A stretch of 27,045 nt of DNA, from positions 1-27,045 of the IMG/VR virus record IMGVR_UViG_3300046001_001259; one strand, 5' to 3'. The translations under genes and the position numbers were made by a program. Shown piece after piece: positions 2,900 through 27,045 of this stretch (the first letter of the stretch is position 1; the number at the start of each line of letters is the position of its first letter). Source of the DNA: a virus. The notes below the pieces were generated by a model, which saw only the letters and a program-made list of their open reading frames with translations, did not search any database and was not told the origin of the DNA.

Positions 2900-3758
2900 T
2901 ATTGTTTTTTTAAGTTATGATGAGCCTAATGCTGACCAGCACTATGCTGACCTATGCAATAAGGTGCCATGGGCCAAGCGTGTTCACGGTGTTAAAGGCA
3001 GTGATGCTGCCCACAAAGCCGCAGCAGAACTCAGCGAAACAGATTGGGTTATCACGGTGGACGCAGACAATATTGTGGACAATAGATTTTTCAATCTAGG
3101 ATTTGATCCCGACAACAAGGACATACAGGTCTACAGTTGGTTGGCTAGAAATCGTATCAACGGATTGTTATATGGCAACGGTGGCCTAAAAATATGGCGC
3201 AAAGATTTCATCCTCAACATGAAGAGTCATGAGGCCAGCGACAACGATCGTGCGCAAGTAGACTTCTGTTGGGAAGATGGTTATAAACAGTTTGCCGAAT
3301 GTTACAGTGAAACAGTTATCACTGGAAGTCCATTTCAAGCATGGCGAGCAGGATTCCGCGAAGGCGTTAAAATGACTCTGCTTGACGGAGTTCGTATTCC
3401 AGCTGACGAGATTAAAGAACGCATCTGGTGGCATAATCTACATAGACTTAAAGTTTGGAGCACCGTTGGCGCACACGAAGAAAACGGCCTATATGCAGTC
3501 TATGGTGCAAGACTAGGTCAATGGATGACCAATTGTACTGATTGGAACTATGTAGATGTTAGAGACTTTGAAATCTTAAAAAACATCTACAATGAAAATG
3601 TCAATCATACCAATCTAGAACACGACATACAGGATCTAGGCTATCACATTAAACGAGGTATGGGATTTGATTATCCTTACCTAGATGCAGATCAAAGCAA
3701 GTATACTCTAGACCTTTACGAAGAAACAATTAAACTTACTAACACCTACCTAAGATGA
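2880..3758 (+). CDS. GT2-like glycosyltransferase
   Basis: From ATG 2880 the protein has 292 residues. A TTG at 2865, with a weak GAAGA upstream, would add five residues, and the start is uncertain between the two. It opens with LDIVFLSYDEPNADQHY and carries DAD (61-63, after WVITV) as the DXD motif. It continues with NGGLKIWRKDF, a glycine-rich turn also seen in its relative. This is the arrangement of metal-dependent GT-A (GT2-like) transferases. The last unit of the next gene is clearly homologous (RVHGVKG, DAD, YGxGGxK all shared). Donor and acceptor are unknown. It overlaps the previous gene by 20 bases and the next by 4 (ATGA). Confidence 0.6.
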   Translation: MKTLELDIVFLSYDEPNADQHYADLCNKVPWAKRVHGVKGSDAAHKAAAELSETDWVITVDADNIVDNRFFNLGFDPDNKDIQVYSWLARNRINGLLYGNGGLKIWRKDFILNMKSHEASDNDRAQVDFCWEDGYKQFAECYSETVITGSPFQAWRAGFREGVKMTLLDGVRIPADEIKERIWWHNLHRLKVWSTVGAHEENGLYAVYGARLGQWMTNCTDWNYVDVRDFEILKNIYNENVNHTNLEHDIQDLGYHIKRGMGFDYPYLDADQSKYTLDLYEETIKLTNTYLR

Positions 3759-7785: not shown

Positions 7786-9901
7786 AAAAATATTAGTATG
7801 CGGAGCAGGTGGATTTATTGGAACACACCTAGTTACCAGTTTAAAAAGTCAAGGGCACTACGTTGTTGGTGTTGATTTAAAATTTCCAATGTATTCTAAA
7901 ACTGATGCAGACGAGTTTCACATAGTTGATTTAAGAAATCAGGATCTAGTAGCCAAGATTGTTACTAGCGACCTAGATGAAATTTATCAATTAGCAGCAG
8001 ATATGGGCGGTACCGGGTATATAGGCACAGGTGAAAATGATGCCGATATAATGCATAATAGTGCTGTAATTAATCTCAACATTCTAAATGAGATGGTTAA
8101 GAAGGATGTTAAGAATGTATTCTATACCAGTAGTGCCTGTGTCTACCCAGAATACAATCAACTAGATCCAAATAATCCCAATTGTGAAGAATCGAGTGTA
8201 TATCCAGCAGAACCTGATACAGAGTATGGTTGGGAAAAACTATTCAGTGAACGTCTGTATCTAAGCTACGGTCGCAACTATGGGTTCAGAGTTCGTATTG
8301 CTAGATTACACAATGTATTCGGTCCACTGGGATCTTGGTGTGATGGTAAAGAAAAAGCGCCAGCAGCATTATGCCGTAAGGTAATTGAAAGCACAGGAGA
8401 AGTAGAAGTCTGGGGTCCTGGTAATCAGACTCGCAGTTTTATGTATATAGATGAGTGCATCAAAGGTATTCACCTAATGATGGCCTGCGCTAGTCAACTG
8501 CCAATTAATCTTGGCAGTGATAGAATGATCAGCATTAACGATCTAGTATTGTTAATTGCCAAGTTGGCCGGTAAAGATATTAAAATTAAAAATATTCCCG
8601 GACCCCAAGGTGTTATGGGCCGTAACAGCGACAACAATTTAATCAAAGGTTTAATTGGTGGATGGGCGCCAGCCGATGCACTAGAGTACGGACTGACAAA
8701 AACCTATGCCTGGATCAAAAGTCAAAAGAAGATTTTTAGTAAGACAGGCAAAGTATATGACCTAAGAGTAGACAAAAATTTCATTGCTCCTTTGACCGAG
8801 TGTGAATGTGCGCCTAATTCAATTTATTACTTTCACTACTATTACGATCTACACGACGGTGTAGGTATCCTAGATAGCCTAGAAGAAAAGCATTGGGATC
8901 ATTTACGAACTGATCCGACAGCCAAGTTTCTTTATGAAAATTGCAATGAAACATTCACCTACAAACTAGCAGATGACATTGCCAAAGTAATAACAGAAAA
9001 AAATATACATCCTTCTAAGATCTATATGATAGTAATGGATGATGTACATAAAAACTTTCTAAGTAAACGATTAACCGAAAGATCAATTTACGGAGTCAAC
9101 ATAGGTGTGTTTAACGATTTATTGGCAAAGACACAGATACACGACAATCAACATACTGAACACAAATTCAGTATGCTGAGTAGAAATTATCGTCCTTGGA
9201 GACTGCACCTATATGCTGAACTGGCGCAGCAGGATCTATTGAAAGACTTTAGATATAGTTTTTACAACATATTCCCCTATGGTGAAGTTAGATACTTTGA
9301 CAAAGACACAATGGCTAAAGATCTAACTGCATTGAACTTTAAAATAGATTCTAATGTAGACACTTGGTTATCCGGAGTGCCTTATACACTAGATGCTAGT
9401 GACAATGTTCTAAACAAATGGGGTGATGTAACCTACGATGCAATCCTAAATGCAGATTTTCATATTCTAGTAGAAACACACTATGATGTATCCTATTATG
9501 TAGATACTAGAAAAGGTAATTTAAGAGATCTAGCGCCTAGTAGCATTACCGAAAAAACCAATAAGCCCATTGCCTGCGGCAAGCCCTTTATTGCATTTTC
9601 TACGGCACACTTCTTAGAAGACTTCCGTAGTCTAGGATTCAAAACATTCAGTCCGTATATAAACGAATCATACGATCTTGAAGAAGACAATCACAAAAGA
9701 CTAAGTATGATAGTTGCCGAAATAAAAAGAATATCAGAATTACCAAAAGATCAATATGACGAGCTGCTGTTTAATTGTCGTTTAATCGCAGCTAAAAATC
9801 GTGAAATATTGCTTTCTAAGAAAGACAACACAGCATACAATGCATCGTTTGAATTTTTAAGGAGTTATTTTGAGTCACAGTCAAATATACAAATTCTTTA
9901 A
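7775..9901 (+). CDS. GDP-mannose 3,5-epimerase fused to a putative transferase
   Basis: A 708-residue fusion. Residues 4-325 form an extended short-chain dehydrogenase: GAGGFIG (10-16) for NAD binding, AADMGG (74-79), SSACVYPE (119-126), YGWEK (151-155), KEKAPAALCRK (192-202) and QTRSFMYIDE (218-227). These closely follow GDP-mannose 3,5-epimerase, which makes GDP-L-galactose; its catalytic Cys and Lys correspond to C122 and K194. From about 335 the protein joins the putative transferase family: SMLSRNYRPWRLHLY (466-480), then ITEKTNKPIACGKPF (591-605). Fusion suggests the sugar nucleotide made by the first half is used by the second. The ATG start overlaps the previous gene by 11 bases. Epimerase assignment is strong; the second half is inferred. 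Confidence 0.8.
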   Translation: MEHKKILVCGAGGFIGTHLVTSLKSQGHYVVGVDLKFPMYSKTDADEFHIVDLRNQDLVAKIVTSDLDEIYQLAADMGGTGYIGTGENDADIMHNSAVINLNILNEMVKKDVKNVFYTSSACVYPEYNQLDPNNPNCEESSVYPAEPDTEYGWEKLFSERLYLSYGRNYGFRVRIARLHNVFGPLGSWCDGKEKAPAALCRKVIESTGEVEVWGPGNQTRSFMYIDECIKGIHLMMACASQLPINLGSDRMISINDLVLLIAKLAGKDIKIKNIPGPQGVMGRNSDNNLIKGLIGGWAPADALEYGLTKTYAWIKSQKKIFSKTGKVYDLRVDKNFIAPLTECECAPNSIYYFHYYYDLHDGVGILDSLEEKHWDHLRTDPTAKFLYENCNETFTYKLADDIAKVITEKNIHPSKIYMIVMDDVHKNFLSKRLTERSIYGVNIGVFNDLLAKTQIHDNQHTEHKFSMLSRNYRPWRLHLYAELAQQDLLKDFRYSFYNIFPYGEVRYFDKDTMAKDLTALNFKIDSNVDTWLSGVPYTLDASDNVLNKWGDVTYDAILNADFHILVETHYDVSYYVDTRKGNLRDLAPSSITEKTNKPIACGKPFIAFSTAHFLEDFRSLGFKTFSPYINESYDLEEDNHKRLSMIVAEIKRISELPKDQYDELLFNCRLIAAKNREILLSKKDNTAYNASFEFLRSYFESQSNIQIL

Positions 9902-10574
9902 TGAATTGAATCAGTACTACGATCCTACCGAATTAGCAGTAAGTCATGCTGAAGGTTCTCCAGTCCCCTACACGATCATAGACAATTTTTTACCCGATGA
10001 ACTATTCAATACACTAAGTTTTGAAGTTGATTTCTTACAAGAAAGTGATTGGACTGTGTTTAGTAAAGGAACAAGTTATAGAAAAGAGTGCAGAAATTTT
10101 ACCAGCACTCCTAGAATACAATCAATGGCCTATAGTTTTCAAGGTAGTATATTTCTCAAATGGATAGAACAACTAACAGGCATTGACAAACTAGTAGGAG
10201 ATCCTCACCATCGAGGTGGCGGCATAACCCGTATGCCTACTGGAACCAGTCTAGGACTTCACAATGACTTCAATTGGAATGAACAAATTAGACTTACTCG
10301 TCGTGCCAATGTAATATTATACATGAATCCCGTTTGGGAAGAAAGTTGGGGCGGAGAATTAGAGTTTTGGGACTTTGACCGAACTGAATGCCTAGTTAAA
10401 ATTGCACCCAAGCCCAATAGACTGGCCGTATGGAATTACGACGAACGTCTGATACACGGTCAGCCACATCCATTGACCTGCCCTGACTCCGTAGAAAGAC
10501 AAAATTTCATACAGTTTTATTATAGTAGTAATGCTACGCATGAAACTCCACCTCATCGCAGTCAATTTGTCTAA
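9870..10574 (+). CDS. 2-oxoglutarate/Fe(II)-dependent oxygenase
   Basis: A 234-residue protein with the facial triad H131-x-D133 (LHNDF) and distal H196 (LIHGQPH), plus R210 placed to bind 2-oxoglutarate (ERQNFIQFYY). The segment ITRMPTGTSLGLHND matches the double-stranded beta-helix of prolyl-hydroxylase-like oxygenases, which hydroxylate peptides, sugars or small molecules using O2. The start is TTG 9870, chosen because AAGGAG (9859-9864) sits five bases upstream; no in-frame ATG nearby has such a site. It overlaps the end of the epimerase fusion by 32 bases and abuts the next gene as TAATG. It could hydroxylate the glycan or the protein that carries it; the substrate is unknown. Confidence 0.8.
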   Translation: MSHSQIYKFFNELNQYYDPTELAVSHAEGSPVPYTIIDNFLPDELFNTLSFEVDFLQESDWTVFSKGTSYRKECRNFTSTPRIQSMAYSFQGSIFLKWIEQLTGIDKLVGDPHHRGGGITRMPTGTSLGLHNDFNWNEQIRLTRRANVILYMNPVWEESWGGELEFWDFDRTECLVKIAPKPNRLAVWNYDERLIHGQPHPLTCPDSVERQNFIQFYYSSNATHETPPHRSQFV

Positions 10575-11161
10575 TGGCAAACTTTCATCTTAACAGTCAA
10601 TCATATCTAGCTCAGCTGTCTTACAATCAAGACACAGATATGATATTAGAAATAGGTAGTGATCAGAATGAAGGATCTACAGAATTTTTTAACGGATTAT
10701 CAGTTAATTGGGAAATACCCTTTTATACTGTGGATGTTATTGATGAACCTCAACATAGATTCACACATCTAGATCATATTATATGGCAAGTATCAGAAAG
10801 TGGAGCAGTATGGACTAAGTCAGTACTGCCTACATTGGGCAAACAAATTAAAGTGCTTTACCTTGATAATTATGATTGGTCTAACCCTGGATCAAATGCA
10901 GATAACATTAAAGCAAATTATGCTCAACGAAATGTTGAGTGGTCAAATATGGGCAGTCAGATTGAACATCTAGCACAAATGGCAAACTGCATGCCATACA
11001 TGTCAGCTGAGTCTTTAGTGATATGTGATGACACGCCTCTAGTAGAAGCAAGCGGAACTTACTCCGGCAAGTGCGGAGCAGTTGTACCTTATCTATTAGT
11101 TAATGGTTATCAAATAGTCTATACCGGAAACAACGGAGTTATACTTCAGAGAGGCAAGTAA
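10574..11161 (+). CDS. SAM-dependent methyltransferase-like protein
   Basis: A 195-residue protein with a motif I-like strand and loop (MILEIGSDQNEGST, 23-36), an acidic strand end (YTVDVID) suited to the ribose of SAM, and a hydrophobic strand KVLYLDNYDW that could be motif II/III. The C-terminal half (LVICDDTPLV, then GKCGAVVPYLLVNGYQIVYT) has the strand order seen in methyltransferases of the FkbM or Methyltransf_24 type often found in glycan clusters. The glycine-rich loop is not canonical, so a non-catalytic Rossmann-like protein remains possible. It is coupled by TAATG to the oxygenase before it and the transferase after it, which suggests a late decorating step. Confidence 0.5.
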   Translation: MANFHLNSQSYLAQLSYNQDTDMILEIGSDQNEGSTEFFNGLSVNWEIPFYTVDVIDEPQHRFTHLDHIIWQVSESGAVWTKSVLPTLGKQIKVLYLDNYDWSNPGSNADNIKANYAQRNVEWSNMGSQIEHLAQMANCMPYMSAESLVICDDTPLVEASGTYSGKCGAVVPYLLVNGYQIVYTGNNGVILQRGK

Positions 11162-12360
11162 TGCTCTGTTACTTTGATAGTGCTATTGATGTAAATCTTT
11201 CACATATTGCAGACATTAAACAGGTACGGTCGCTGGACGAATTAAAAAAACGACTAAGTGAATCTAATTTTGAATTTGTACATTCAACAGAATACTCGCA
11301 GCAGGGATTATACATAATTGAAATTAGTAAGATACCAGAGCTCTGGTGCGCAAAAACTTTTTTAAAAAGCTTCAACCTATTGCTTAATATACCAAGTAGA
11401 GTAATTAAGGCCGCTAAATCTAAAAAGATAAGAATACTGATTTTGTCAACAGTAGAAGGAGATAATTTCAGTTATGATACATTTGACGGATTCCAGCATT
11501 TACATAGTACAGTTCAATTGTTGGGGCTTCCTAAACACTCTGTACTTATTGTTTCTGGAAATTTAAATGCTGGGCAACAATATACAGAATGGTGTATAAA
11601 AAATTCTAAAGAAGAATATATTGAATTTCAAGAAGGTATTGAGTGGGATGGAAAAATGTCACATCCTCCTAGTACCCCTGTTAAGATAACAGATTATGGT
11701 TTACCGTTTAACAGTTTAAATCGTGCCCATAGAAATCACAGAACAGAACATTTATATTTTCTAGCCGAAAATAAAATACAGGGTTTAATAAGTGGTGGGG
11801 CTTGGTTTAATACACACACTATTGATATGCCGATATATCAAACAGTAGAATACAATCATTATAAAACTGTACTAACAGCTAACTACCCTAAGACTGTAGA
11901 TGTACTAGACCTAGTTAATCAAGTACCTAACCTAATTAACAATCTAGAAATATATGAACGCAGCCAACTAACAGTTGTAACCGAAAGTCATTTTAATCAA
12001 ACAGGCGGATTGTTTATTACGGAAAAAACATTTAGGCCGTTATTAGTTGGCCATCCGTTTATGGTACTAGGTCAAAAAGGATCTTTAGAAAAATTGAAAA
12101 GTTGGGGATTCATAACTGACTTTGATGGCATTGATCAAAGCTATGATAATGTTGCAGATGATAAAGAACGATTTTTACAATTTCATTTATCTTTAAGAAA
12201 CTGGTGTGTACAAGATTCGGAAATTCGAAGAACTGCAATTTACAAATGGAACAACATTATCCAACACAATTTTCAAAATTATAAAAAACTAAATTTTAAG
12301 AAAACTATGTTTGATAATGTTATCTTGTCTACGGAACAGTATTTTAAAAAATGTTTTTAG
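11161..12360 (+). CDS. Putative GT-B-like transferase, third member of the family
   Basis: A 399-residue protein with the same ordered motifs as the 6493 protein and the second half of the 7775 protein: NSLNRAHRNHRTEHLYFLAE near the middle, and FITEKTFRPLLVGHPFMVLG near the C-terminal third, followed by GF-TDF and DQSYD. An aromatic and charged N-terminal half is not shared. It is the last gene of the + strand operon and converges on the - strand run with a 17-base overlap (12344-12360). It begins at ATG in a TAATG overlap. Sequence around it is A+T-rich compared with the 7775 gene. A sugar-transfer function is inferred from family and context. Confidence 0.5.
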   Translation: MLCYFDSAIDVNLSHIADIKQVRSLDELKKRLSESNFEFVHSTEYSQQGLYIIEISKIPELWCAKTFLKSFNLLLNIPSRVIKAAKSKKIRILILSTVEGDNFSYDTFDGFQHLHSTVQLLGLPKHSVLIVSGNLNAGQQYTEWCIKNSKEEYIEFQEGIEWDGKMSHPPSTPVKITDYGLPFNSLNRAHRNHRTEHLYFLAENKIQGLISGGAWFNTHTIDMPIYQTVEYNHYKTVLTANYPKTVDVLDLVNQVPNLINNLEIYERSQLTVVTESHFNQTGGLFITEKTFRPLLVGHPFMVLGQKGSLEKLKSWGFITDFDGIDQSYDNVADDKERFLQFHLSLRNWCVQDSEIRRTAIYKWNNIIQHNFQNYKKLNFKKTMFDNVILSTEQYFKKCF

Positions 12361-15339: not shown

Positions 15340-15551
15340 TTACATGTTCCTAACCATTCATCGAATATATTTACGGCTTCGTCAAAGTCTATGGCTAATA
15401 CTTTGGCTGATATGACGCCGTCTGTAATAGACATGTCAAACGGTACCACTCCGTTAAATCTAAAATCTTCAGGAGTATCAGTTTCGACAATGAACTCCTG
15501 TAAGTTCTTTGCTCTAAAAATTAAATTATTTGCCATGTCTACTGAATTCAT
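15336..15551 (-). CDS. Small acidic phage protein
   Basis: A 71-residue protein, acidic, with a beta-like core (FIVETDTPEDFRFNGVVPFD, 20-39) and a C-terminal helix (DEAVNIFDEWLG). The start at ATG 15551 overlaps the exonuclease stop as ATGA; an alternative ATG five codons in is possible. It is coupled to the exonuclease before it and the 14800 gene after it. Function unknown. Confidence 0.65.
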   Translation of the reverse strand: MNSVDMANNLIFRAKNLQEFIVETDTPEDFRFNGVVPFDMSITDGVISAKVLAIDFDEAVNIFDEWLGTCK

Positions 15552-16534
15552 AATACATACCTTGCATTTAACGGCTCAGCATACGCTTGCGCCTGATCGG
15601 AAATCTTTTTAAGATCATAAAGATTACAGAATTTAATAAGTCTAATACCAACTTGACTGATATTCTTATTAGCACTTGTTGCAGTAGCGATAGTTTCTGC
15701 AATGATAGTCTTAATCTCATCTGGTTGTGCAGACAGATCGATCAGCACTCGATTGCGTTCGTAGTCATCCAGCACACGATGCTCTTCACCGTTGTGGTCG
15801 GTCCAACGCTGAAGCATCATGTTGTTCCAATTGTAGCCTTTTGAGTCTCGATCACCGTAGGCCTCACGGAGACCAACCTTATTCTTTGTGCCTTTTTCCC
15901 GTACTCCCGGATATGCAGAGAATACATTGTCTGAGGTATCGCCTCGCATACACTTCTCAAAGAGTAACCACTGGGGGTCCGGAATGGCTTTTGGCTCTTG
16001 AGTCTTTTTATCAATAACTCTCTTACCTTTTGCATCGAAGATACCTTCATGTGTGATAGTAGTTTCCATAACACCATTATATTGTTTCACATTGGGTGCA
16101 ATAAGTTGTACAAAATCTGTGTCTGTGCTAATGATCACATGTTTATCATTTGGATGTGTCTGAATCCAACCTGCAATAAGATCATCTGCTTCTAGACGAG
16201 AATTTTGTAAGACTGTACAATTTGTCTTTTCTGTTACAAATTCTTTAAAGGTATCAAAGGCTTCCCAAAAGACTTTTTCTTCTTCTGCTTCACGCTCTGT
16301 ATGTGCGGCACGACTAGCGGCTCTTTGTGCCTTGTAAGGCTTGTAATGGTCTTTACGCCAGCTACGACCTTCTAAACAGAACACAACATGAGTACCGCCA
16401 AAGTCTTGCCACGCTTTTTTAATCGAATTAAGTGTAATATGAAACGCCATGCCTAGTTTGATATCAGCGTCACCGTTGATAACGTGACGAGCACGAAAGA
16501 ATGTGTTTGCTGTATCTACTAAAATATAAGTCAT
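15548..16534 (-). CDS. rnh: 5'-3' exonuclease / flap endonuclease (phage RNase H type)
   Basis: A 328-residue protein of the FEN/PIN superfamily. Acidic metal ligands appear in the expected order: D7 (ILVDTANTFF), E115-A-D117-D118 (LEADDLIA), D138 and D140 (ISTDTDFVQL), then D199 and D202 (GDTSDNVFSAYPGV), which leads into the helix-hairpin region. Arg/Lys-rich helices at about 60-85 fit the arch that threads the flap. The T4 member removes RNA primers from lagging-strand fragments and trims flaps. The length is close to T4 RNase H. It overlaps neighbours by ATGA on both sides. The family is secure; the rnh symbol rests on the T4-like context. Confidence 0.9.
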   Translation of the reverse strand: MTYILVDTANTFFRARHVINGDADIKLGMAFHITLNSIKKAWQDFGGTHVVFCLEGRSWRKDHYKPYKAQRAASRAAHTEREAEEEKVFWEAFDTFKEFVTEKTNCTVLQNSRLEADDLIAGWIQTHPNDKHVIISTDTDFVQLIAPNVKQYNGVMETTITHEGIFDAKGKRVIDKKTQEPKAIPDPQWLLFEKCMRGDTSDNVFSAYPGVREKGTKNKVGLREAYGDRDSKGYNWNNMMLQRWTDHNGEEHRVLDDYERNRVLIDLSAQPDEIKTIIAETIATATSANKNISQVGIRLIKFCNLYDLKKISDQAQAYAEPLNARYVL

Positions 16535-16968
16535 TTATTGTTTCTTTTCACACTTTGAATGTCAATAACACCTGTGTTAACTTCGGGCAAATTTTCATCT
16601 ACTACGACATTAGCACAGAGCTCTCTAAACCAGCGGTCTACAATTTCTTCGTCTTTATCACCGTCGTAACCGTAGCCCTCTTGCTTTAATTTTAACACAA
16701 AATGGTCGTTCCAGTCAAGTTCAAAAAAACCATTGCGTACATTGTCTTTATTGACATGTGTGTTAAGCACAGCAACATAAGGCTCTTCTTTACGAGTAGC
16801 TCGTTCTTTAGCTGTTAATTTGGACTGTTCTTCTGCTTGGGTAGCTCTTTCGGCTGCGGCGGTAGCATCTTGTGCAATCTTAGTAGCTTCACTAGCCGCT
16901 TTTAAACTGGCTTCTGTTTCGGCCCTAATCTTATCAATGCCAAATAACTTTTCAATCCATTTATTCAT
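16531..16968 (-). CDS. Coiled-coil phage protein with conserved acidic C-terminal domain
   Basis: From ATG 16968 the protein has 145 residues; a GTG four codons upstream is less likely. The ATG forms a TAATG overlap with the queE stop. The first 60 residues are Ala/Glu/Lys-rich helix, probably coiled coil. The rest contains PYVAVLNTHVNKDNVRNGFF and EEIVDRWFREL, an arrangement I recognise as a conserved protein of T4-like marine phages without known function. The contrast between a disordered or helical start and a conserved globular end suggests a scaffold plus a binding domain. Confidence 0.75.
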   Translation of the reverse strand: MNKWIEKLFGIDKIRAETEASLKAASEATKIAQDATAAAERATQAEEQSKLTAKERATRKEEPYVAVLNTHVNKDNVRNGFFELDWNDHFVLKLKQEGYGYDGDKDEEIVDRWFRELCANVVVDENLPEVNTGVIDIQSVKRNNK

Positions 16969-17816
16969 TAGGTTCCCCACTCATTTTTAAACAACGGCAC
17001 CTGTAATCTATCACTGTAGCGCAAGCCGTTTTTCATTGCCAAGTCTGCTACTGTACGATTGTTTAGTGCATAAACACTTTCTACACCACCAACGGGCATC
17101 AGATAAACATGACCGTTGAATCCTGCTCGTCGATAAGCGGCAATAGCACATTCTGCGTCTTTAAAGTCTTGTTCTGTAGCAATGACAAATTTTAAATATG
17201 CTGTGCCAACTTGTTCGTATTCGCAAACAATTTCAGGTTTAATAGCATCGTCCCAAGACTCGCCTGAACAAGGAAGTTTAGCACTTACTGAGAATGTAAT
17301 TTCTCTTTCATCATTACCGAACGACCAATCGGTTAAGTATTCTTTAAACTTGGGATCAAGTTTCTGAGTACCGTTTGTTTCAAAGGTAATCTCTTTTAAT
17401 CCTGCCATCTTAGGATGACTCAGCAAGTCTGGATATGCTCGTTGCCAACCTAGCAAAGGCTCACCGCCCGTGATAACTAGATGCTCGTCCTTCCACTCAT
17501 TGAAGGGCAGTATCTCCATGATTCTGTCTGCAATGGCGTCTGATGTAAGCATAGGACTAAGGTCCTTAAAACGTGGATCCCAAGAAGCATAACTATCGCA
17601 ACCAGTACTAACCAACGGAAGTTCTTCATAGACTTTAAATTCAGTGATGCGTTCAGCAATAGATTCAACCTCTGTGCTTAGTTCACCACGAGGCATGCCA
17701 AAGCCTGCACATTTAAAGTTACAACCAAATGTGCGTAGAAACACAGACGGAACGCCCATATAGCGTCCTTCACCTTGTATGCTGTAGAACAGCTCTGCTA
17801 TTTTTAATTTACTCAT
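16968..17816 (-). CDS. queE: 7-carboxy-7-deazaguanine synthase, radical SAM (QueE)
   Basis: A 282-residue protein converting carboxytetrahydropterin to 7-carboxy-7-deazaguanine. Family landmarks are FYSIQGEG (10-17), PSVFLRTFGC (23-32), ITGGEPLL (115-122) and FETNGT. The cluster cysteines are unusual: C32 and C36 are in place (GCNFKC), but the third position is Phe39. The usual C-D-T/S-x-Y continuation appears later as CDSYASWD from C73, giving C-x3-C-x36-C. I read this as an insertion in the cluster loop. A shift of the cluster motif is not unprecedented in QueE (Burkholderia multivorans QueE has C-x14-C-x2-C). It works between QueD and the transglycosylase, both encoded in the same run. The start is ATG 17816 without a strong ribosome site. 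Confidence 0.88.
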   Translation of the reverse strand: MSKLKIAELFYSIQGEGRYMGVPSVFLRTFGCNFKCAGFGMPRGELSTEVESIAERITEFKVYEELPLVSTGCDSYASWDPRFKDLSPMLTSDAIADRIMEILPFNEWKDEHLVITGGEPLLGWQRAYPDLLSHPKMAGLKEITFETNGTQKLDPKFKEYLTDWSFGNDEREITFSVSAKLPCSGESWDDAIKPEIVCEYEQVGTAYLKFVIATEQDFKDAECAIAAYRRAGFNGHVYLMPVGGVESVYALNNRTVADLAMKNGLRYSDRLQVPLFKNEWGT

Positions 17817-18362: not shown

Positions 18363-18494
18363 TTATTCCTTAAAGCATTTATCAACCCAACCGGTTACAG
18401 CAACTAACCACCCATATCCGGCCGGCTCACCCCAATATACCCATGCTAGAAACACAGCACAGATAGTAATAATAATTGCTAGCGATCGTTTCAT
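18363..18494 (-). CDS. 43-residue single-span membrane protein
   Basis: A short gene reading from ATG 18494 to TAA at 18363-18365. It begins MKRSLAIIITICAVFLAWVY: two basic residues followed by about 16 hydrophobic ones, then an aromatic and charged tail of about 20 residues ending KCFKE. This is a typical N-in or signal-anchor membrane segment; a signal peptide is possible but no clear cleavage site is seen. It forms an ATGA overlap with the phosphoribosyltransferase stop and ends two bases before the next gene, fitting the packing exactly. Candidate roles include superinfection exclusion or lysis timing, by analogy only. Confidence 0.65.
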   Translation of the reverse strand: MKRSLAIIITICAVFLAWVYWGEPAGYGWLVAVTGWVDKCFKE

Positions 18495-18988
18495 TTAGCC
18501 CACCATTCTTCGTAGGGGAATTCAATCCAAACATCTTCTTCTGCCTTATTTACTTCCATACCCCAGTAGTTCATACCTTTACTACATTGACTGGATAGAT
18601 TGTCTACTACTACGGCAAAACGAACATTGCCGCCCCAGATATGTTCCCAGCGTTCATCGTAGGGAAAACAACCACTAGGCCAATCCTTCATAATCCAATT
18701 TAGTGTGCTACCTTGGTCGTTGATGTCGTCAACAATTAGGATATTCTTTCCGTCAAATGCATCTTCGGCCATGCCTAAGTTACTGGTACACTCTCCACCG
18801 TCACGCAGACTGACATCTAGCGATTGCATAGGAATATTAAAATAATGACTGATCATAACAGCTGGTAGTAGTCCACCGCGAGTTAACCCTACAATATAAT
18901 CTGGACGCCAATCACTAGCGCCAATTTGTTTGCAAATATTTGCAACTAGATTTTTAAATTGTTTATTTTTAATTATGAGCTTGTTCAT
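18491..18988 (-). CDS. Type I phosphoribosyltransferase
   Basis: A 165-residue protein with the PRPP-binding loop ILIVDDINDQGSTL (83-96) and an upstream IVGLTRGGLLPAV (32-44) that forms the pyrophosphate loop. This is the layout of purine phosphoribosyltransferases such as the xanthine-guanine type, which join a base to PRPP. The base cannot be read from the sequence. In this window a role in purine salvage, or in handling a deazaguanine base, would suit the neighbouring genes; the second is speculation. It overlaps the cupin by 20 bases and the small membrane protein by four. Confidence 0.8.
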   Translation of the reverse strand: MNKLIIKNKQFKNLVANICKQIGASDWRPDYIVGLTRGGLLPAVMISHYFNIPMQSLDVSLRDGGECTSNLGMAEDAFDGKNILIVDDINDQGSTLNWIMKDWPSGCFPYDERWEHIWGGNVRFAVVVDNLSSQCSKGMNYWGMEVNKAEEDVWIEFPYEEWWAK

Positions 18989-19436
18989 ATCTTTCTTTCA
19001 AATATTGTTCGTGTTGTATCCATTTGTTATTGACTAAAAATCCCCAATCTCTTTTCTTGGGACCGGGCATAAACAATGTCCATGCAGTTACGCTAGGATC
19101 AAGCTCAATGCGATGGTAGCTATTAGCCCTGCATATACGAAAACTGCCAGGTCCTCTCCATACACACATTTCAGCGATCTTGTTACCCTTGTTGTCAAAT
19201 TGTGGAAGCCATTCATAATACCCGCCTTTTAGTATTAGAGTAGCATAAGGCCACGGATGATCATGTACATCATCTGGGTCACCTTTTAAGAACTTATGTA
19301 AGAATACATTAAAGGGAAAACGGTCTCTATCTTTTAGAAACAGATAATAGCGTTCAAGATAAGGTTCGTCACTCTGACGATCCATAACAATACGCTTGCG
19401 ACCCATGCGATCTAAAAAATCTAGAAACCATTTCAT
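18969..19436 (-). CDS. Cupin-fold protein
   Basis: A 155-residue protein with the two cupin motifs. Motif 1 is DDVHDHPWPYATLILKGGYYEW (55-76), giving H58, H60 and E75 as likely metal ligands. Motif 2 is GPGSFRICRANSYHRIEL (95-112), giving H108. A single cupin domain of this size can be an oxygenase, an isomerase or a binding protein, so the reaction is not predicted. It follows folE by three bases and overlaps the phosphoribosyltransferase. Its steady place in the nucleotide block suggests a small-molecule role. Confidence 0.7.
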   Translation of the reverse strand: MKWFLDFLDRMGRKRIVMDRQSDEPYLERYYLFLKDRDRFPFNVFLHKFLKGDPDDVHDHPWPYATLILKGGYYEWLPQFDNKGNKIAEMCVWRGPGSFRICRANSYHRIELDPSVTAWTLFMPGPKKRDWGFLVNNKWIQHEQYLKERYEQAHN

Positions 19437-19439
19437 ATA

Positions 19440-20186
19440 TTACCTTGGAGCAAATTCTTGCTGTAGTTTAATGTTGTCAAAGAACTCTTTCTTTGTATGA
19501 GGATCGTCTTTGAATGTGCCTTTGAGCACTGTAGTCTGTGTCAGTGAGCTATGTGCCATGATGCCGCGATTTTCGCAACATCCGTGAACTGCTTGAACAT
19601 ATACTGCTACATTCTCTGAGTCAGTTGCTTTGCTAATTTCTCGGGCTATGTCGTTACACAATTCTTCTTGTAGTGTTCCTCGACGAGCACACCATTGTGC
19701 GATACGAGTATATTTAGAAAGACCAATGAGTTTATTAGCGGCAATGATACCGATGTAGGCAACCCCAGATACAGGCTGGTGATGATGAGAGCACATGGAC
19801 CGTAGCTCACTGCGAACCACGAGCATACCTTCGTAACGGTCTGCAGAATCATTTGGGAATGCTGTTGCGTCTGGTGCTGTTTCATATCTTCCTGCCATTA
19901 CTTCATTAAAATACATTTTAGCAAGTCGTTGGGCTGTACCTTTTGAATTAGGATCGTTCTCACGATCAATTAGCAAACAATCTAAAACTTTTTCAAAAGC
20001 TAGAGTTGTTTCGTTGATTAGCTCTTCTTTCATTTTGTCATCAATGTATTCACTGATGTTATCTCCAGCCCAAAATCTTTTACCATTGCGTTTCATTACA
20101 AAACCCAAATAGTTATGCGCTGTGCCTACTTGATAACCACTGTCGCCGTACATAGCGTCAAGTGCTGTTTCTTTTTTATCTGTCAA
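19440..20186 (-). CDS. folE: GTP cyclohydrolase I (FolE)
   Basis: A 248-residue protein catalysing GTP to dihydroneopterin triphosphate, the first step to tetrahydropterins and 7-deazaguanines. Zinc ligands are present: C132 and H135 (MCSHHHQP) and C203 (HGCCENRG). The core GLSKYTRIAQWCARR is typical of the family. The first 50 residues form an extension beyond the usual catalytic core. The start is TTG 20186, supported by GGAG eight bases upstream; the next ATG is 11 codons in and would lack a site. A gap of 40 bases separates it from the glycosyltransferase gene, and it holds only a five-base-pair hairpin (ATGTC...GACAT). Likely source of pterin for queD and queE in the same run. Confidence 0.92.
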   Translation of the reverse strand: MTDKKETALDAMYGDSGYQVGTAHNYLGFVMKRNGKRFWAGDNISEYIDDKMKEELINETTLAFEKVLDCLLIDRENDPNSKGTAQRLAKMYFNEVMAGRYETAPDATAFPNDSADRYEGMLVVRSELRSMCSHHHQPVSGVAYIGIIAANKLIGLSKYTRIAQWCARRGTLQEELCNDIAREISKATDSENVAVYVQAVHGCCENRGIMAHSSLTQTTVLKGTFKDDPHTKKEFFDNIKLQQEFAPR

Positions 20187-20226: not shown

Positions 20227-21330
20227 TTATTTTAACATCTCTAATAGCTTATTGCAACTAAAAAAGTTTTCTTTTAATTCATATACCTGTTTATTTAGGC
20301 TAGGCAAGAATTTTTCGTAATTATTCATGTACTGAATAATCTTGTTACAGACTTCTGGTCTGTGTGCCTCGTAGGCAGTATAGCTTTCAGTCCATTCGCT
20401 AGGATACTTAAATGTATCAAATGCCATCTCGCTATAACTTAGTCTATCAGGCACCATTGGAATAGCATCAACTACAGCACCTTCGTACCAACTGATGCCT
20501 AGAGTTTCTTGTAGGTTAGCACTGAACACTAACTTAGCTTCACCCAGCAAGTTATGATATTCGTTCTTTGTAAGTTGTTGATCTTGACAAACAACAAATT
20601 CGTATTGAGGAAGATATTGTTTTAGGTCACGGAAGATCTCAACCTGCTTCTCAGGAGCAATACGATGCGGAAACAAAATGAGATCACGCTTGGGCATGTT
20701 CTTATACATTAGCAAAGTATCTTGCATATACTCCATGGGCCATCCTGTACGCACAAACTTAGGATACTCTCCGCTTAGTATTTCTTCAAGTTCTTCCTCG
20801 TACCAAGGATTTTCTGCACTATGTCCATTGTTCAATAATTCTCTATTAAACATTTCTATATGGAATTCTGTAGCAAAGTAGTTGTGATCAAAAGCAGAAA
20901 AGAATGATTTCTCTGCATTTCTAACCCAAGGCTTATTACCAACAAGACGACCTAGGAAGTCTTGTGGATCATAACTGCCGGCATGCCATAGTCCGTGTGT
21001 GGTTACTGGAATGCCCAGCAGTTCACTCATGTATTTTAAGTTTATGATGCCTGGATGCCAAGCGTCAGTAAAGATAAAATGATCGCCAGCCTTGATGGAT
21101 CCTGTACAAAAAAGTCTTCCAAGCTGTTCAACTTGGCTTGCCTTATAGATATTAGTGCCCCCAAAATTGAGAAATGCACCAGGAGTAGTGGCGCTAGGAA
21201 TATCGCTAGGGCCCGATATAACATGAACTTCATGTCCTGCCTTTCGTAAGAGATTAGGTACATGGGCCTTCCATTGACCCGTGTACCTTGTTTCTACTGC
21301 TTCTAGATCAACGAGAAAAACTTTGCTCAT
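20227..21330 (-). CDS. GT-B glycosyltransferase, GT4-like
   Basis: From ATG 21330 the protein has 367 residues; the in-frame extension further upstream covers the 21308 gene and is rejected. It opens SKVFLVDLEAVETRYTGQWK, has VISGPSD at the end of an early strand, a donor-domain opening LILFPHRIAPEKQVEIFRDL, and the E-x7-E motif in ANLQETLGISWYEGAVV near the C-terminus, typical of retaining GT4 enzymes. These use a nucleotide sugar without a metal. It sits between folE and queD, away from the + strand sugar island. Possible targets include DNA, a modified base or a small molecule. No ribosome site is visible, so translation may be coupled through the 23-base overlap with the 21308 gene. Confidence 0.75.
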   Translation of the reverse strand: MSKVFLVDLEAVETRYTGQWKAHVPNLLRKAGHEVHVISGPSDIPSATTPGAFLNFGGTNIYKASQVEQLGRLFCTGSIKAGDHFIFTDAWHPGIINLKYMSELLGIPVTTHGLWHAGSYDPQDFLGRLVGNKPWVRNAEKSFFSAFDHNYFATEFHIEMFNRELLNNGHSAENPWYEEELEEILSGEYPKFVRTGWPMEYMQDTLLMYKNMPKRDLILFPHRIAPEKQVEIFRDLKQYLPQYEFVVCQDQQLTKNEYHNLLGEAKLVFSANLQETLGISWYEGAVVDAIPMVPDRLSYSEMAFDTFKYPSEWTESYTAYEAHRPEVCNKIIQYMNNYEKFLPSLNKQVYELKENFFSCNKLLEMLK

Positions 21331-21588: not shown

Positions 21589-21978
21589 TTAATACTTGAT
21601 AAAAGAACCATTTTCTCCGTCTTCGGAGACCTCAATCCAAATCTCACGACCTGGATACTTTGTGGAGATAGCGTCAAACAAATCGCCTGACATCATCTCG
21701 CAACTCTTGTGATCTAAACTTAGTGTAGCATCTTTGTAAAGATTTTCCAACCATCTCTTGAACTGAATAAACTCAATATCACGGTCATCGTGTGTTACGC
21801 CTATCCAAACTTTAAAGTGGAAGATGTGACGATGTTCGTTAGCGAGAAACGAAACATCATATTCGTCGCCTGTGGCTAGATTAGGATCAGTTGCTGCCGC
21901 AGGATAACGATGCATACCTTCTTTACGGAAAGTAACCCAGATCATTTTGTTTGGGCGAATGTCTTGACGAATAATCAT
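21589..21978 (-). CDS. queD: QueD/PTPS-family protein without the usual catalytic cysteine
   Basis: A 129-residue protein of the 6-pyruvoyl-tetrahydropterin synthase family, which in this pathway makes carboxytetrahydropterin. Zinc ligands are present as H23 (GMHRYPAA) and H49/H51 (EHRHIFHF, the HGH equivalent). LDHKSCE (88-94) and the closing VSEDGENGSF (117-126) match the LDH and Glu motifs. At the site four residues before HGH, where the family has Cys, this protein has L45; C93 is the only Cys in the chain. The pattern fits phage-type QueD-like proteins I recall from cyanophages. It may use C93, or may do a related reaction. ATGA overlap with the 21975 gene. Confidence 0.75.
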   Translation of the reverse strand: MIIRQDIRPNKMIWVTFRKEGMHRYPAAATDPNLATGDEYDVSFLANEHRHIFHFKVWIGVTHDDRDIEFIQFKRWLENLYKDATLSLDHKSCEMMSGDLFDAISTKYPGREIWIEVSEDGENGSFIKY

Positions 21979-22202: not shown

Positions 22203-22591
22203 CTCAAACTCTCCATAGTGATGATTTTTGCTAACTCTTCTCCAAGCTCTTTGTCGTCTGTAACTACATGCAGACTGTGTTTATGATCATCTCGTTGACG
22301 ATCATACTTGGTAGTTTCAATGATAGTTCCACCACTGGCACTATATACATTCAATCTAAATCCTTGTGATTGAATATTTGGACCGTCGCTGTCAACAGCA
22401 ATAGCATTGCCGTACTCTAGCTCGTCATCGTTCATTAGCCAGTTTCGAATTCTTTGTTTAAATGTTAATTTCATAGGTTTTTCTTCTACTGTATATCGTA
22501 CAGGACGGACCGTGTTGTTTAATGTCTTTATCGACCTCTGTAAGCGGTGAATAGACTTTGCGGTTGAGGCATATTGCCCAATATTACTCAT
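22199..22591 (-). CDS. Conserved phage protein with extra N-terminal segment
   Basis: A 130-residue protein from ATG 22591, in an ATGA overlap with the 22588 gene. The part from M40 (MKLTFKQRIRNWLMND) to the end (LAKIITMESLR) is of a type I recall in marine T4-like phages. The first 39 residues are basic and probably helical and may be an addition particular to this phage. A second start at M40 would give 91 residues. Predicted globular beta-rich domain in the middle (GFRLNVYSASGGTIIETTKY). Function unknown. Confidence 0.65.
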   Translation of the reverse strand: MSNIGQYASTAKSIHRLQRSIKTLNNTVRPVRYTVEEKPMKLTFKQRIRNWLMNDDELEYGNAIAVDSDGPNIQSQGFRLNVYSASGGTIIETTKYDRQRDDHKHSLHVVTDDKELGEELAKIITMESLR

Positions 22592-23121
22592 TTGATGATC
22601 TCATCCTTGCCATATTGATCCCAACTGGTAAACCGATCTCTACCAAGTAGATCGTGAAGATTATGACACCACACTCCGGGATTTGTTGCTTTAAAATCTT
22701 TGTCGTCTATCTTTATTGTAGCATTATATCCTAGCTGTTGTAAATAGGGCAGTTTAACCGAAATCTGCGGAATAAACTGACGCTTCTCTACAAGACCGCT
22801 TTCTAATAGACCTTCTACCTGTGCTACATCTAGATCCAGTGTACACCAAAATTCGTCGTCTGCATCTAAGCAAACATAAATCATATCTTCCCATAGACGC
22901 CATGGTTCGGCGTCATTGACAGCTAGTTTAGGAAAACTTTGATTAGCACCAAAGTAGATATGAGTACACTTGTGTTCACGAGCAAGTTCCATGATTACAT
23001 AGGCATCATGCACACCTGTTACAAACAATGTCTTCATTCCGTATGCAGGAGTTTTTTCAATCTCTATGCCTGTAAAGAATGTAATACTGTCTGCAACACC
23101 TGATTCGTAATTTCTTTTCAT
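22588..23121 (-). CDS. Conserved phage protein in the queD block, unknown function
   Basis: A 177-residue protein. An N-terminal strand and loop (ITFFTGIEIEKTPAYGMKTL, 13-32) is followed by a Rossmann-like pattern (LFVTGVHDAYVIMELAREHK, then THIYFGANQSFP). The middle is acidic and rich in Trp. I recall relatives in cyanophages, always unassigned. The alternation of strands and helices would suit a nucleotide or base-binding role. It is three genes upstream of queD in the same coupled chain. It is not recognisable as QueC: it lacks the N-terminal ATP-pyrophosphatase SGGxDS motif. Confidence 0.7.
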   Translation of the reverse strand: MKRNYESGVADSITFFTGIEIEKTPAYGMKTLFVTGVHDAYVIMELAREHKCTHIYFGANQSFPKLAVNDAEPWRLWEDMIYVCLDADDEFWCTLDLDVAQVEGLLESGLVEKRQFIPQISVKLPYLQQLGYNATIKIDDKDFKATNPGVWCHNLHDLLGRDRFTSWDQYGKDEIIK

Positions 23122-24603: not shown

Positions 24604-26148
24604 TTACTCCTCTTGTATGTCAGTTTCCAAGTTGCGCAAGACATCATCATCTTGCTGATCGAATTCTTCTTCTTTGACTTTTTTAGCATCACCCCAGTCA
24701 AACAGATCTTTGTTACCGTAGGCAACAGGACCACCTTGTAGTCGAGCACCTTCTAGGCTAGTTAAGAATTGATTGGCATTGTTGATTAGTGCAAATGCTT
24801 CGTCCTTAGTCTTTGTATTAAACAATTCTTCAATGAAAGTAGCAAAGTAAAGAATTTTACGAGGAACCCAATCACTGAATTCGATCTCTTTCTTGCCTTC
24901 TACTCCCCATTGACGCCAGTCGGGTTTGTGTTTGGCACATTCAATATCCATTAACTGTTGTGCTCTTTGCACAGCTTTGATATGACATTCAACATTATGA
25001 CCCATCATAAGAGCGTAGCTAAAGCTATCCCACGATGTTTTGCCTTCTTTCTTAATTTTATTCAACATGCCTGGCTTGTACCAACAGATGTCTCCAATGG
25101 AAAGTCTGTTTCCAAGCTCTGATTCAAAGGGGAACGGGACATCAAAATTCTGGCTAAGGGCTTTTGTGTCTGGGGCTTTGTCCATGATGACAGACCAACG
25201 CTTGTTGGTATGTTGTGCATTGGTATAGACGAGTCCGTGTGCTGTGGCAATAAAGGGCGAGGCGCAATCAAAAGAGATGGTAAAGTTTTCATTTATGTGC
25301 TTTTTAATTTGTCGTTGGATTAAAGTGAGATAACAACTCCAGTCAAGTTGTGCGGTACCCAAGAAGTGCATCCAGTCTTTGCCTTCTAGCAAGCCGTCTT
25401 CTCGTAATGTCATTAATCTCTTTAAGGTAATAGGCATCTTGCACATATTAGCGCCACCCATTGCCCAACCTTCTGCTTCCTTGCCAGCATACTTGCCTTT
25501 AGGGTCGCTAAATTCTTTTACACCTTGGTACCATGCTTCCGCAGTATCCCAGTCACCACCTTGTAGAACATTGAGCCACTTAGTTTGACCTAGTCTATTT
25601 TGCAAGAAGTAATCATTATTAAAGCGGGTCTTGTCTAGACAGTCTTCAAATGTTTTTAATCCGGTCTTTGGACTGTGAATATGATCACAAGCCCAAGTAG
25701 GAACATCAAGCATCATACTCCAATCAGCAGTAAGTTCCAACCATTCTAGAATCTTTTGACGAGTTTTTGTTGCTTCAACACCTTCAAAGTCTAACCAATC
25801 AAATTTAAGAACACCTTTACCAATCTGATATCCACCTGAGTCACCTAAGATCATTGTGTTGCCACGATCTCGTTGTTGAATCATAGATTCTTGTACCAGA
25901 CTCTTTTGTAAATCTAACTGTGCATGTCCTGCAGAATATAGGGCATACTTGTAGGTAAAGTAGCCCTGTTCTTCATTTAAGAAGTTCATACCTTCAATGC
26001 CACGGTCAAATCCTTTGGGAATACGATCTGCTGGTACAAATTCTTCTAGTCGCTGTTTAGCAACATAGGTACTATAGAAACTACTAATAGCAGGTAGATA
26101 AACTGCATAGTCCTTCTGTAGCGGTGTTAAATTAACTGGTTGTCTCAT
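24604..26148 (-). CDS. dpdA: DpdA-like DNA 7-deazaguanine transglycosylase (TGT fold)
   Basis: A 514-residue protein with the catalytic signatures of tRNA-guanine transglycosylases in order: GDSGGYQ (102-108, general acid/base D103), VLQGGD (194-199), WAMGGANM (228-235), and ISFDCASP (291-298, nucleophile D294). The bacterial TGT zinc motif (C-x-C-x2-C and distant His) is not seen. The phage DpdA family exchanges guanine in DNA for a 7-deazaguanine base made by FolE, QueD and QueE. Those genes lie in the same run, supporting DNA rather than tRNA as the target, but a tRNA role cannot be excluded from sequence. AAGGA lies five bases before ATG 26148. Overlaps the next gene upstream by 17 bases. 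Confidence 0.8.
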   Translation of the reverse strand: MRQPVNLTPLQKDYAVYLPAISSFYSTYVAKQRLEEFVPADRIPKGFDRGIEGMNFLNEEQGYFTYKYALYSAGHAQLDLQKSLVQESMIQQRDRGNTMILGDSGGYQIGKGVLKFDWLDFEGVEATKTRQKILEWLELTADWSMMLDVPTWACDHIHSPKTGLKTFEDCLDKTRFNNDYFLQNRLGQTKWLNVLQGGDWDTAEAWYQGVKEFSDPKGKYAGKEAEGWAMGGANMCKMPITLKRLMTLREDGLLEGKDWMHFLGTAQLDWSCYLTLIQRQIKKHINENFTISFDCASPFIATAHGLVYTNAQHTNKRWSVIMDKAPDTKALSQNFDVPFPFESELGNRLSIGDICWYKPGMLNKIKKEGKTSWDSFSYALMMGHNVECHIKAVQRAQQLMDIECAKHKPDWRQWGVEGKKEIEFSDWVPRKILYFATFIEELFNTKTKDEAFALINNANQFLTSLEGARLQGGPVAYGNKDLFDWGDAKKVKEEEFDQQDDDVLRNLETDIQEE

Positions 26149-26512
26149 TATGGTCCTTAACTAATTTTGCAGTAATATCTAATTGCTGCTTTGCCTTCTT
26201 CATGTTCTCTAATGCAATTTTAACAGCATCGTTTGTTTTTGCCAACTTTTCCCACTCCGATTCTTCTGCCATTTTTAAATTAGCCCAATTTATAACAGCT
26301 TGTATTTGTGGGCTAAGTTGAATGTCGGCAGTTTTACCATACATCGGTTGCCAAAGATTTGTACTACCATCAAAGACTTCTATGGAATTATTATTGCCGT
26401 TCCATCGCATCATGCCTGAACTTGGTGCATTCATATTGATGTAAGGCATTGTACTCCCTCCTGTACTGACCCACAGGAGGGAATTGCCGTTGGCAGTAAT
26501 AGTTGCTATCAT
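26132..26512 (-). CDS. Phage protein with possible internal start behind a hairpin
   Basis: A 126-residue protein from ATG 26512, in an ATGA overlap with the previous stop. The N-terminal half looks like a beta domain of virion type (SGMMRWNGNNNSIEVFDGST, 32-51). The C-terminal half is charged helix. An ATG at 26449 (M22) has a strong AGGAGGG behind it, but that site is the 3' arm of a ten-base-pair hairpin (26455-26482). The long form is favoured because its extra residues read smoothly as protein and fit the overlap habit. A shorter second product is possible. Confidence 0.7.
   Translation of the reverse strand: MIATITANGNSLLWVSTGGSTMPYINMNAPSSGMMRWNGNNNSIEVFDGSTNLWQPMYGKTADIQLSPQIQAVINWANLKMAEESEWEKLAKTNDAVKIALENMKKAKQQLDITAKLVKDHNETTS
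26455..26482 (-). promoter_or_regulatory. Perfect 10-bp hairpin sequestering an internal ribosome site
   Basis: The - strand reads TCCCTCCTGT, an eight-base loop, then ACAGGAGGGA: a perfect ten-base-pair stem. The 3' arm contains AGGAGGG, positioned seven bases before ATG 26449. When folded, the site is hidden. No T-tract follows, so it is not a terminator. It lies inside the coding frame of the 26132 gene and encodes ordinary residues, so a chance match is possible but unlikely at this length. A control of internal initiation is inferred. Confidence 0.45.
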
Positions 26513-27045
26513 GCCTGTGCAGGAATAATGTACTTGTAAGTGGCAATGCCGCTGTCAAGAGTAATCTGAATAGCACCCTCGTTACTCAAACTCATCTTGG
26601 TGTTGTTGACATCTGCAATCTTAAGAATGCTCAAGATTGGCATAACAGGCCAAGTCCAACCACGATCCAATTTACCTTCAACACCCATAGCAAAGATGAA
26701 TTCGCCTGCATGTGTTGATGCATCACCAAAGATAAACTTTAGATTGCCGCCATCTGTTTTAGCAAGGAATGTTGGATGTTCGTTATGAGCACCTGCCTGG
26801 AAGTTGAATCGAGTCACAGAAGCCACGGTTGGCTCTAGTTCTACATCCCATTTAACACCACGGAACTTAACAGTCTTCATTTTTTCATTAATAACTTCTG
26901 TATTCATGAAACGATAATCGTTTTTAAAGTCACCGTCTTTATTTTCAAAGTGAATGCCTACAGGCACAACTTCACCATTGCGTTCTGCTGTAGTGATAGA
27001 AATCTTTGCGTTTTCTTTGTACTCTGGACCATCAACAAGATACTT
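26509..27045 (-). CDS. C-terminal part of a protein resembling a DNA sliding clamp
   Basis: The frame is open from the window edge at 27045 to TGA at 26509-26511, giving 178 residues of a larger protein; a GTG at 26967 is internal, because the coding sequence continues upstream of it. The last segment (WPVMPILSILKIADVN, then MSLSNEGAIQITLDSGIATY) has the helix-then-strands order of the second half of a PCNA/gp45-type clamp. The preceding part includes KFIFGDAS and AGEFIFAMGV. I do not see the standard T4 gp45 sequence, so the clamp call is structural guesswork and a virion protein remains possible. It overlaps the next gene as ATGA. Confidence 0.45.
   Translation of the reverse strand, partial: KYLVDGPEYKENAKISITTAERNGEVVPVGIHFENKDGDFKNDYRFMNTEVINEKMKTVKFRGVKWDVELEPTVASVTRFNFQAGAHNEHPTFLAKTDGGNLKFIFGDASTHAGEFIFAMGVEGKLDRGWTWPVMPILSILKIADVNNTKMSLSNEGAIQITLDSGIATYKYIIPAQA

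Follow-up and report, generated by a model that had tools for sequence, protein, structure and literature searches.

The stretch of viral DNA analysed in this study (the window, 27,045 nucleotides, a 27 kb virus fragment from IMG/VR) encodes on its minus strand a DpdA-like guanine transglycosylase of 514 amino acids (P0001, positions 24604 to 26148), which starts with ATG and contains no zinc site. We consider it likely that this protein is a phage DNA-guanine transglycosylase that inserts a 7-deazaguanine made by the virus, with the inserted base probably derived from 7-carboxy-7-deazaguanine (CDG) rather than from preQ0. The protein family represents a real, well conserved lineage among the guanine transglycosylases of phages, which is unnamed in the libraries that we searched and located in an unusual deazaguanine operon.

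Searches of Pfam (E up to 1), PHROGs (E up to 0.01) and NCBIfam (E up to 0.1) assigned the transglycosylase to no family, so that nothing in the identification rests on annotation. The curated cut-off for PF01702, the TGT family of Pfam, was not reached, with no match at E <= 1 and none in the window record. A phmmer search of the PDB with the protein gave a single meaningless match (E 0.38), and a search with the family profile gave none. Because the sequence libraries returned no family, the identification required profile-profile and fold comparisons. The family alignment was obtained from 196 sequences, which an 88% filter reduced to 69 including the query, and contained 68 members after omission of one sequence (L021). 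The AlphaFold model computed from this alignment has a pLDDT of 87.6 and a pTM of 0.88 and adopts the TIM-barrel fold of TGTs, with 307 residues aligned to 2ash_A (Z 18.9, rmsd 4.7). TGTs occupied ranks 1-15 in a Foldseek search against the PDB (E 8e-7 to 1.1e-3), followed by the first unrelated structure at 3.5e-3, and the best 50 matches obtained with VIA were all TGTs (Z 18.9 to 17.7). Named near matches in a library of viral models include the TGT of Motura (E 2e-12) and DpdA2 of nt-1 (E 1e-9). As judged by hhalign, the closer of two phage profiles was a zinc-bearing TGT-like family from vB_PpuM-Aura, GR7B, PhiXhv-15, NCTB and Motura (prob 98, E 8e-14), while DpdA2 was a remote profile homolog (prob 88, E 3e-6). 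The profile of the zinc-bearing family also matched the transglycosylase of PA5oct (E 1.5e-8).

A preliminary description of the sequence had listed four motifs, and these were found in the order given: DSGGYQ (residue 103), QGG as part of LQGG (195-198), AMGG (229) and FDCASP (293). This set is far above chance, since Foldseek ranks 1-15 and the best 50 VIA matches were all TGTs. Seven residues (D103, D148, G197, G264, D294, S297 and H384) are invariant in all 68 sequences, query included, while the first position of QGG is variable (Q in 57, S in 10 and H in one of the 68) and F takes the place of the M in AMGG in 38 of the 68 family members. The predicted catalytic Asp pair consists of D103 in DSGG-Q and D294 in FDCASP, both kept in 68/68 sequences and aligned with the motifs of the E. 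coli TGT. The fold matches and the invariant Asp pair identify the product as a transglycosylase of the TGT superfamily whose catalytic pair is intact. The acidic character noted earlier for the last 60 residues was also recovered (15 D/E as compared to 6 K/R), and the last 50 residues have a median net charge of -8 (range -13 to +2) across the family alignment.

The C-x-C-x2-C motif of the zinc site, which reads CDCYTC in the E. coli TGT, is missing from the window protein, as stated in the preliminary description, and likewise from all 68 members of the family alignment. It is present in 5/5 members of the zinc-bearing phage family and absent from DpdA2 of the nt-1 type (7/7) and DpdA of phage 9g (1/1). 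In the profile alignment, the Cys region of the zinc-bearing family corresponds to the FPFESELG region and its His to H384 of the window protein; the Cys zinc ligands of the window family seem, from the aligned sequences, to have been replaced in place with the His retained. The absence of the motif is thus real, yet it is common to known DNA-directed enzymes and hence not distinctive, since the phage enzymes DpdA (9g) and DpdA2 (nt-1) also lack it. An interpretation of the lost zinc site as an indicator of DNA specificity was therefore rejected, with other phage TGT-like proteins having the site. The earlier proposal of a DNA-directed enzyme holds in that the FolE- and QueE-like neighbours in a virus make DNA a likely target, but not in taking the absent zinc motif as a pointer. 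Within the zinc-bearing family (L084, L219-L222), the genes of Aura, GR7B and PhiXhv-15 are located close to a sigma factor gene.

The genes around the transglycosylase are all on the same strand, the minus strand of the window, and their order was compared over 135 distinct transglycosylase genes, 59 of which have at least 8.5 kb of downstream sequence. Upstream is the gene for a sliding-clamp-like protein (26509 to 27045), which runs off the end of the window and belongs to phrog_12062, a family of unknown function. The family of this protein aligned with T4-type clamps from nt-1, RHph_I1_18 and Phosso (hhalign prob 97.3, E 2e-11), and the gene was found upstream of the transglycosylase in 124 of the 127 distinct genes with at least 1.5 kb of upstream sequence, in agreement with the clamp-like neighbour previously suggested. 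In the window, the two are separated by a 126-aa ORF (26132 to 26512), which is present in 69 of the 127 distinct genes with upstream sequence. Downstream of the transglycosylase follow several ORFs, including that of a 177-aa conserved protein (22588 to 23121; 55/59 distinct loci; no Pfam match at E 0.01), a 129-aa conserved protein that is a candidate CDG-processing enzyme (21589 to 21978; 56/59), a small ORF, a predicted GT4-type GT-B glycosyltransferase (20227 to 21330; 367 aa from ATG; 56/59) and a FolE-like GTP cyclohydrolase I (19440 to 20186; 45/59), which scored 135.9 bits to PF01227 (cut-off 27) and matched phrog_2197 but was below the NCBIfam cut-offs for FolE. Thereafter come a cupin-like protein named cysteine dioxygenase in PHROGs (18969 to 19436; phrog_4786, E 2e-38; no Pfam match; 45/59), a phosphoribosyltransferase (18491 to 18988; PF00156, E 5.5e-13; 40/59), small ORFs, a QueE-like radical SAM protein as a putative 7-carboxy-7-deazaguanine synthase (16968 to 17816; 56/59), another ORF and, at the far end, a 5'-3' exonuclease-like protein (15548 to 16534; phrog_107, E 4e-40; 40/59). 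The QueE assignment rests on phrog_2076 (E 5e-52), with QueE models as the best NCBIfam matches but below the cut-offs of both NCBIfam and Pfam. The 129-aa protein, the glycosyltransferase and QueE co-occur in 55 of the 59 distinct loci. The surroundings of the transglycosylase are a conserved block and not a chance neighbourhood, with the loci representing related viruses and not independent events.

The phosphoribosyltransferase and the cupin-like gene lie together (18491 to 19436) between FolE and QueE, and relatives of the phosphoribosyltransferase are also present in the clusters of BUCT-ZZ01 and PA5oct. This enzyme could salvage the guanine freed by base exchange. The opposite part of the window (272 to 12360) contains a long run of plus-strand genes, two of which were scanned: an epimerase (7775 to 9901; PF01370, E 1e-42) and a gene with a radical SAM match below the cut-off (5142 to 6500). 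This block may represent a set of genes for a glycan.

With FolE- and QueE-like genes for 7-deazaguanine synthesis located beside a transglycosylase in a virus, DNA is the likely target of the enzyme. We propose that, after replication, D294 would attack C1' of deoxyguanosine with the release of guanine, and that a 7-deazaguanine produced by the viral FolE, QueD and QueE would fill the vacated position, QueD being encoded elsewhere in 13 of 23 large records. The clamp neighbour would fit a recruitment of the enzyme behind the replication fork, and the modified DNA would withstand host restriction enzymes. A sequence relative of the transglycosylase is located about 3 kb from QueE in PA5oct, and another in Vibrio phage 2.275.O lies within about 8 kb of an annotated QueF and transporter and of matches to QueC, FolE and QueE. 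As a counterpoint, the transglycosylase of Phosso is about 170 kb away from the FolE-QueE cluster. For phages that encode DpdA or DpdA2, preQ0 and related bases have been reported in the DNA (Hutinet 2019, PMC6884629), and for Vibrio phage 6E351A a modification of 15% of dG, consistent with dPreQ1 (PMC12028318).

The inserted base would probably be CDG or a product thereof such as 7-deazaguanine, and not preQ0, since a full-length QueC, which the formation of preQ0 requires, is missing and the 129-aa protein is present. We surveyed the pathway in 23 large records (20 from IMG/VR and three named phages, chosen from those at hand), in which QueE was identified in 22, FolE in 18, QueD in 13 and a full-length QueC in a single record. 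QueC matches of any length were obtained in three of the 23 records: full length in Vibrio 2.275.O, and partial in two IMG/VR records, G003 (positions 4-68, E 1.1e-6, above the cut-off) and G020 (E 1.5e-5, under the cut-off). The window, which is a fragment, matched neither QueC nor QueD. IMG/VR records may be fragments, so that a missing QueC in one such record is of little weight; no QueC match was obtained either for PA5oct and Phosso, whose genomes were deposited as complete.

The 129-aa family was searched in 22 phage records that carry a transglycosylase relative or a 129-aa gene, and was identified in 11 (PA5oct, Phosso, ACP17, X1, BUCT-ZZ01, RHph_I1_18, Bakedbeans, Ahp1, phiST, MA9V-3 and D479), of which PA5oct, ACP17, X1 and BUCT-ZZ01 are rows of the family alignment and match by construction. 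None of these 11 has a full-length QueC, with partial matches in X1 (E 6.6e-4, under the cut-off) and D479 (E 6e-9, positions 133-201, above the cut-off), while the 11 phages without the 129-aa family were all QueC-positive, nine at full length and Yut3 and NCTB in part. The 129-aa family and a full-length QueC thus never occurred together in the 22 phages. Fisher's test gave a p-value of 2.8e-6 with the partial matches of X1 and D479 scored as absent, and 78/705432 (about 1e-4, one-sided) with these scored as present, but both values are too small because six of the 11 positives were picked for having the 129-aa gene and several of the phages are kin. Among the 16 phages picked beforehand, a full-length QueC was found in 0/5 positives as compared to 9/11 negatives, and any QueC match in 1/5 as compared to 11/11. 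The 129-aa family was also present in 19 of the 20 IMG/VR records, six of which contributed rows to the alignment.

In the six phages added for their 129-aa gene (RHph_I1_18, Bakedbeans, Ahp1, phiST, MA9V-3 and D479), about 18 kb each were searched and none matched the three profiled transglycosylase types or the 9g type; the controls nt-1, Motura and PA5oct were all detected. On this basis, an obligatory link of the 129-aa family to a transglycosylase was rejected. FolE is annotated close to the 129-aa gene in all six, and with no transglycosylase of these types within the 18 kb of any of them, the 129-aa protein is associated with the synthesis genes and not with this transglycosylase. The protein has no Pfam family, with six single-member matches at chance level among 24 members. 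By eye, its HRH and SCE motifs resemble those of PTPS, but hhalign gave a prob of 2.6 to QueD/PTPS and Pfam PTPS was not matched. Cui et al. 2023 reportedly predicted a CDG decarboxylase, DpdL, and found that phage DNA contains dCDG and 7-deazaguanine. The 129-aa protein may correspond to DpdL, and phages with this family would have a step that uses CDG without QueC. In Vibrio phage Bakedbeans (383 aa; L244:8212-9363) and Chryseobacterium phage MA9V-3 (293 aa; L247:8431-9312), the family forms the C-terminal portion of a longer protein, and it adjoins a MazG-like pyrophosphatase in Cellulophaga phage phiST (L246:8430-9354).

The product of 20227 to 21330 is predicted from its model to be a GT4-type GT-B glycosyltransferase. 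The AlphaFold model (49-member alignment, pLDDT 92.2) aligned over its full length in VIA to sucrose-phosphate synthase (Z 25.2) and BshA (Z 23.9), and those recognised among the best 50 matches (Z 20.1 to 25.2) were GT-B glycosyltransferases. Sequence support is weak, with PF00534 matched by 7/49 members (best 5e-5) and Rsbr_N by 9/49 (best 0.0015) and neither by the window protein itself; it is stronger for the homologs of X1 (E 8e-12) and BUCT-ZZ01 (E 6e-6). A homolog of the glycosyltransferase gene directly adjoins the transglycosylase in PA5oct (gp167), ACP17 and X1, and is one gene away in BUCT-ZZ01, where the gene in between is a member of the 129-aa family. In Phosso, it adjoins the 129-aa gene and is followed by FolE and QueE. 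Overall, it was identified in 5/11 of the phages with the 129-aa family as compared to 1/11 of the others in the 22-phage set; the latter, PhiXhv-15, has a partial match about 0.9 kb from its QueC match. It was not found in Vibrio 2.275.O. The glycosyltransferase accompanies two types of transglycosylase, the window type and DpdA2, which points to a role in the modification pathway.

We tentatively suggest, as a rather unlikely extension, that the DNA contains a glycosylated 7-deazaguanine: FolE, QueD and QueE would make CDG, the 129-aa protein would prepare it in place of QueC, the transglycosylase would insert it behind the clamp and the glycosyltransferase would add a sugar. To our knowledge, no glycosylated deazaguanine has previously been described in DNA. 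Parallels are provided by the glucosylated hydroxymethylcytosine of T4 and by mannosyl- and galactosyl-queuosine in tRNA. In the literature on deazaguanine and DpdA in phage DNA, no title among the matches listed names a glycosylated deazaguanine. A pterin is the main alternative acceptor for the predicted enzyme. The glycosyltransferase might act on a pterin or on a cell-surface sugar and be connected with FolE instead of the DNA base, a reading that is compatible with the main explanation and that we regard as conceivable if somewhat doubtful. The products of FolE and QueD are pterins, and the GT4 matches include a pterin glucosyltransferase (5zes, Z 20.1), which was not nearer than other structures. 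Against a pterin or surface sugar as acceptor stands the gene order, with the glycosyltransferase next to the transglycosylase in PA5oct, ACP17 and X1, one gene off in BUCT-ZZ01, and next to the 129-aa gene in Phosso.

The transglycosylase could also be an ordinary preQ0-inserting DNA enzyme, with QueC supplied by the host and with other roles for the 129-aa protein and the glycosyltransferase. In support, these enzymes share homology with those of known preQ0 pathways and the relative Vibrio 2.275.O has a full-length QueC match, but we hold this to be unlikely, as the 129-aa family fills the phages without a full-length QueC. FolE, QueD and QueE are usually present in hosts too, and yet the viruses carry them, which makes the loss of QueC alone odd. 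It is much less probable that the protein acts as a tRNA-guanine transglycosylase and modifies tRNA of the host or the phage in favour of phage translation. The fold and catalytic residues are indeed common to the tRNA enzymes; however, no tRNA gene was found within the 27,045-nucleotide window, the zinc site is lost in 68/68 family members, the gene sits with clamp and replication genes, and the characterised viral relatives act on DNA.

A tblastn search with the transglycosylase against 50,697 phage records (E limit 1) matched 27, and in 13 of these the match extends over 80% or more of the query: eleven records of PA5oct-like Pseudomonas phages (41.5% identity), Sinorhizobium phage Phosso (29.1%) and Vibrio phage 2.275.O (30.6%). 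The remaining 14 matches were partial (E 0.07 to 0.4). In IMG/VR, 509 of 510 candidate stretches encode relatives of the transglycosylase, and the best 80 were kept. A FastTree phylogeny (29 sequences, 387 columns) placed the window family with PA5oct, Phosso and Vibrio 2.275.O (support 0.87), apart from DpdA2 (support 1.0), but is given little weight since it is rooted with a single tRNA enzyme and two deep nodes have values of 0.18 and 0.73. A profile scan of GTDB genomes recovered 42 loci with relatives, six of which (L249-L252, L263, L290), from metagenome bins, also contain further genes of the block seen in the phages. The other relatives are 26-37% identical, with one fragment at 52%, and integrase-like genes of two clusters were present in 25 and 12 of their loci and a DUF6641 gene in 17. 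None of the 42 ORFs, four of which are short (143 to 346 aa), contains C-x-C-x2-C. The distant relatives at L253-L289 are from genomes and bins of proteobacteria, in many cases close to an integrase of the phage type, and two copies each were found in one Burkholderiales bin (L273, L277) and in Rhizobiales TNE-4 (L254, L255).

We compared the window protein to systems known from other phages. The DpdA2 protein from Vibrio phage nt-1 (phrog_10773), a fold match in the viral library, has the motifs DSGG-Q, FD..P, G, LG and ISYD in the same order, lacks the zinc motif and adjoins FolE. It differs in that the nt-1 protein matches phrog_10773 at E 4e-211, which the window protein does not (no PHROG family at E 0.01), in that QueC is located beside DpdA2 and the 129-aa family is missing in nt-1, and in that the profile match between the two is remote. 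The DNA of nt-1 has been reported to contain preQ0 and dG+ (Hutinet 2019, PMC6884629). The zinc-bearing phage family shares an alignable zinc region with its His kept as H384, but differs in C-x-C-x2-C itself. DpdA of Enterobacteria phage 9g (phrog_887) is DNA-directed, has no zinc motif and adjoins clamp and FolE genes, but is shorter (317 aa) and has DSGAFS in place of DSGGYQ; phage 9g was not among the 27 tblastn records. The PA5oct-like Pseudomonas jumbo phages share 41.5% identity over 98% and have QueE, the 129-aa gene and that of the glycosyltransferase close by, although the transglycosylase gene of PA5oct is annotated as hypothetical. PA5oct has been listed with a system for deazaguanine synthesis and incorporation, and the passage in question contains no mention of a missing QueC or of a glycosyltransferase of this system (Iyer 2021, PMC7824862). 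Queuosine, QueE and GTP cyclohydrolase do not appear in the MIJ3 paper. In Phosso (L083:11181-11903; L242:2969-4803), the gene just upstream of the transglycosylase is annotated as a virion structural protein and does not match the clamp-like family; the annotated clamp instead precedes the 129-aa gene and the glycosyltransferase by about 0.7 kb.

The kind of enzyme and the deazaguanine system of PA5oct were thus already known, and the new part is the gene set without QueC and with a glycosyltransferase. The combination of a pathway without the last step in the production of preQ0 and with a glycosyltransferase suggests a DNA modification that has not been described previously. If so, a widespread group of phages would use a QueC-free deazaguanine route, with a candidate replacement gene and possibly a sugar on the base. 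Among named phages, the PA5oct-like phages and Phosso combine the 129-aa protein and the glycosyltransferase with a transglycosylase of the window type, and ACP17, X1 and BUCT-ZZ01 combine them with an enzyme of the DpdA2 type. Such a modification would have a bearing on how phages escape restriction.
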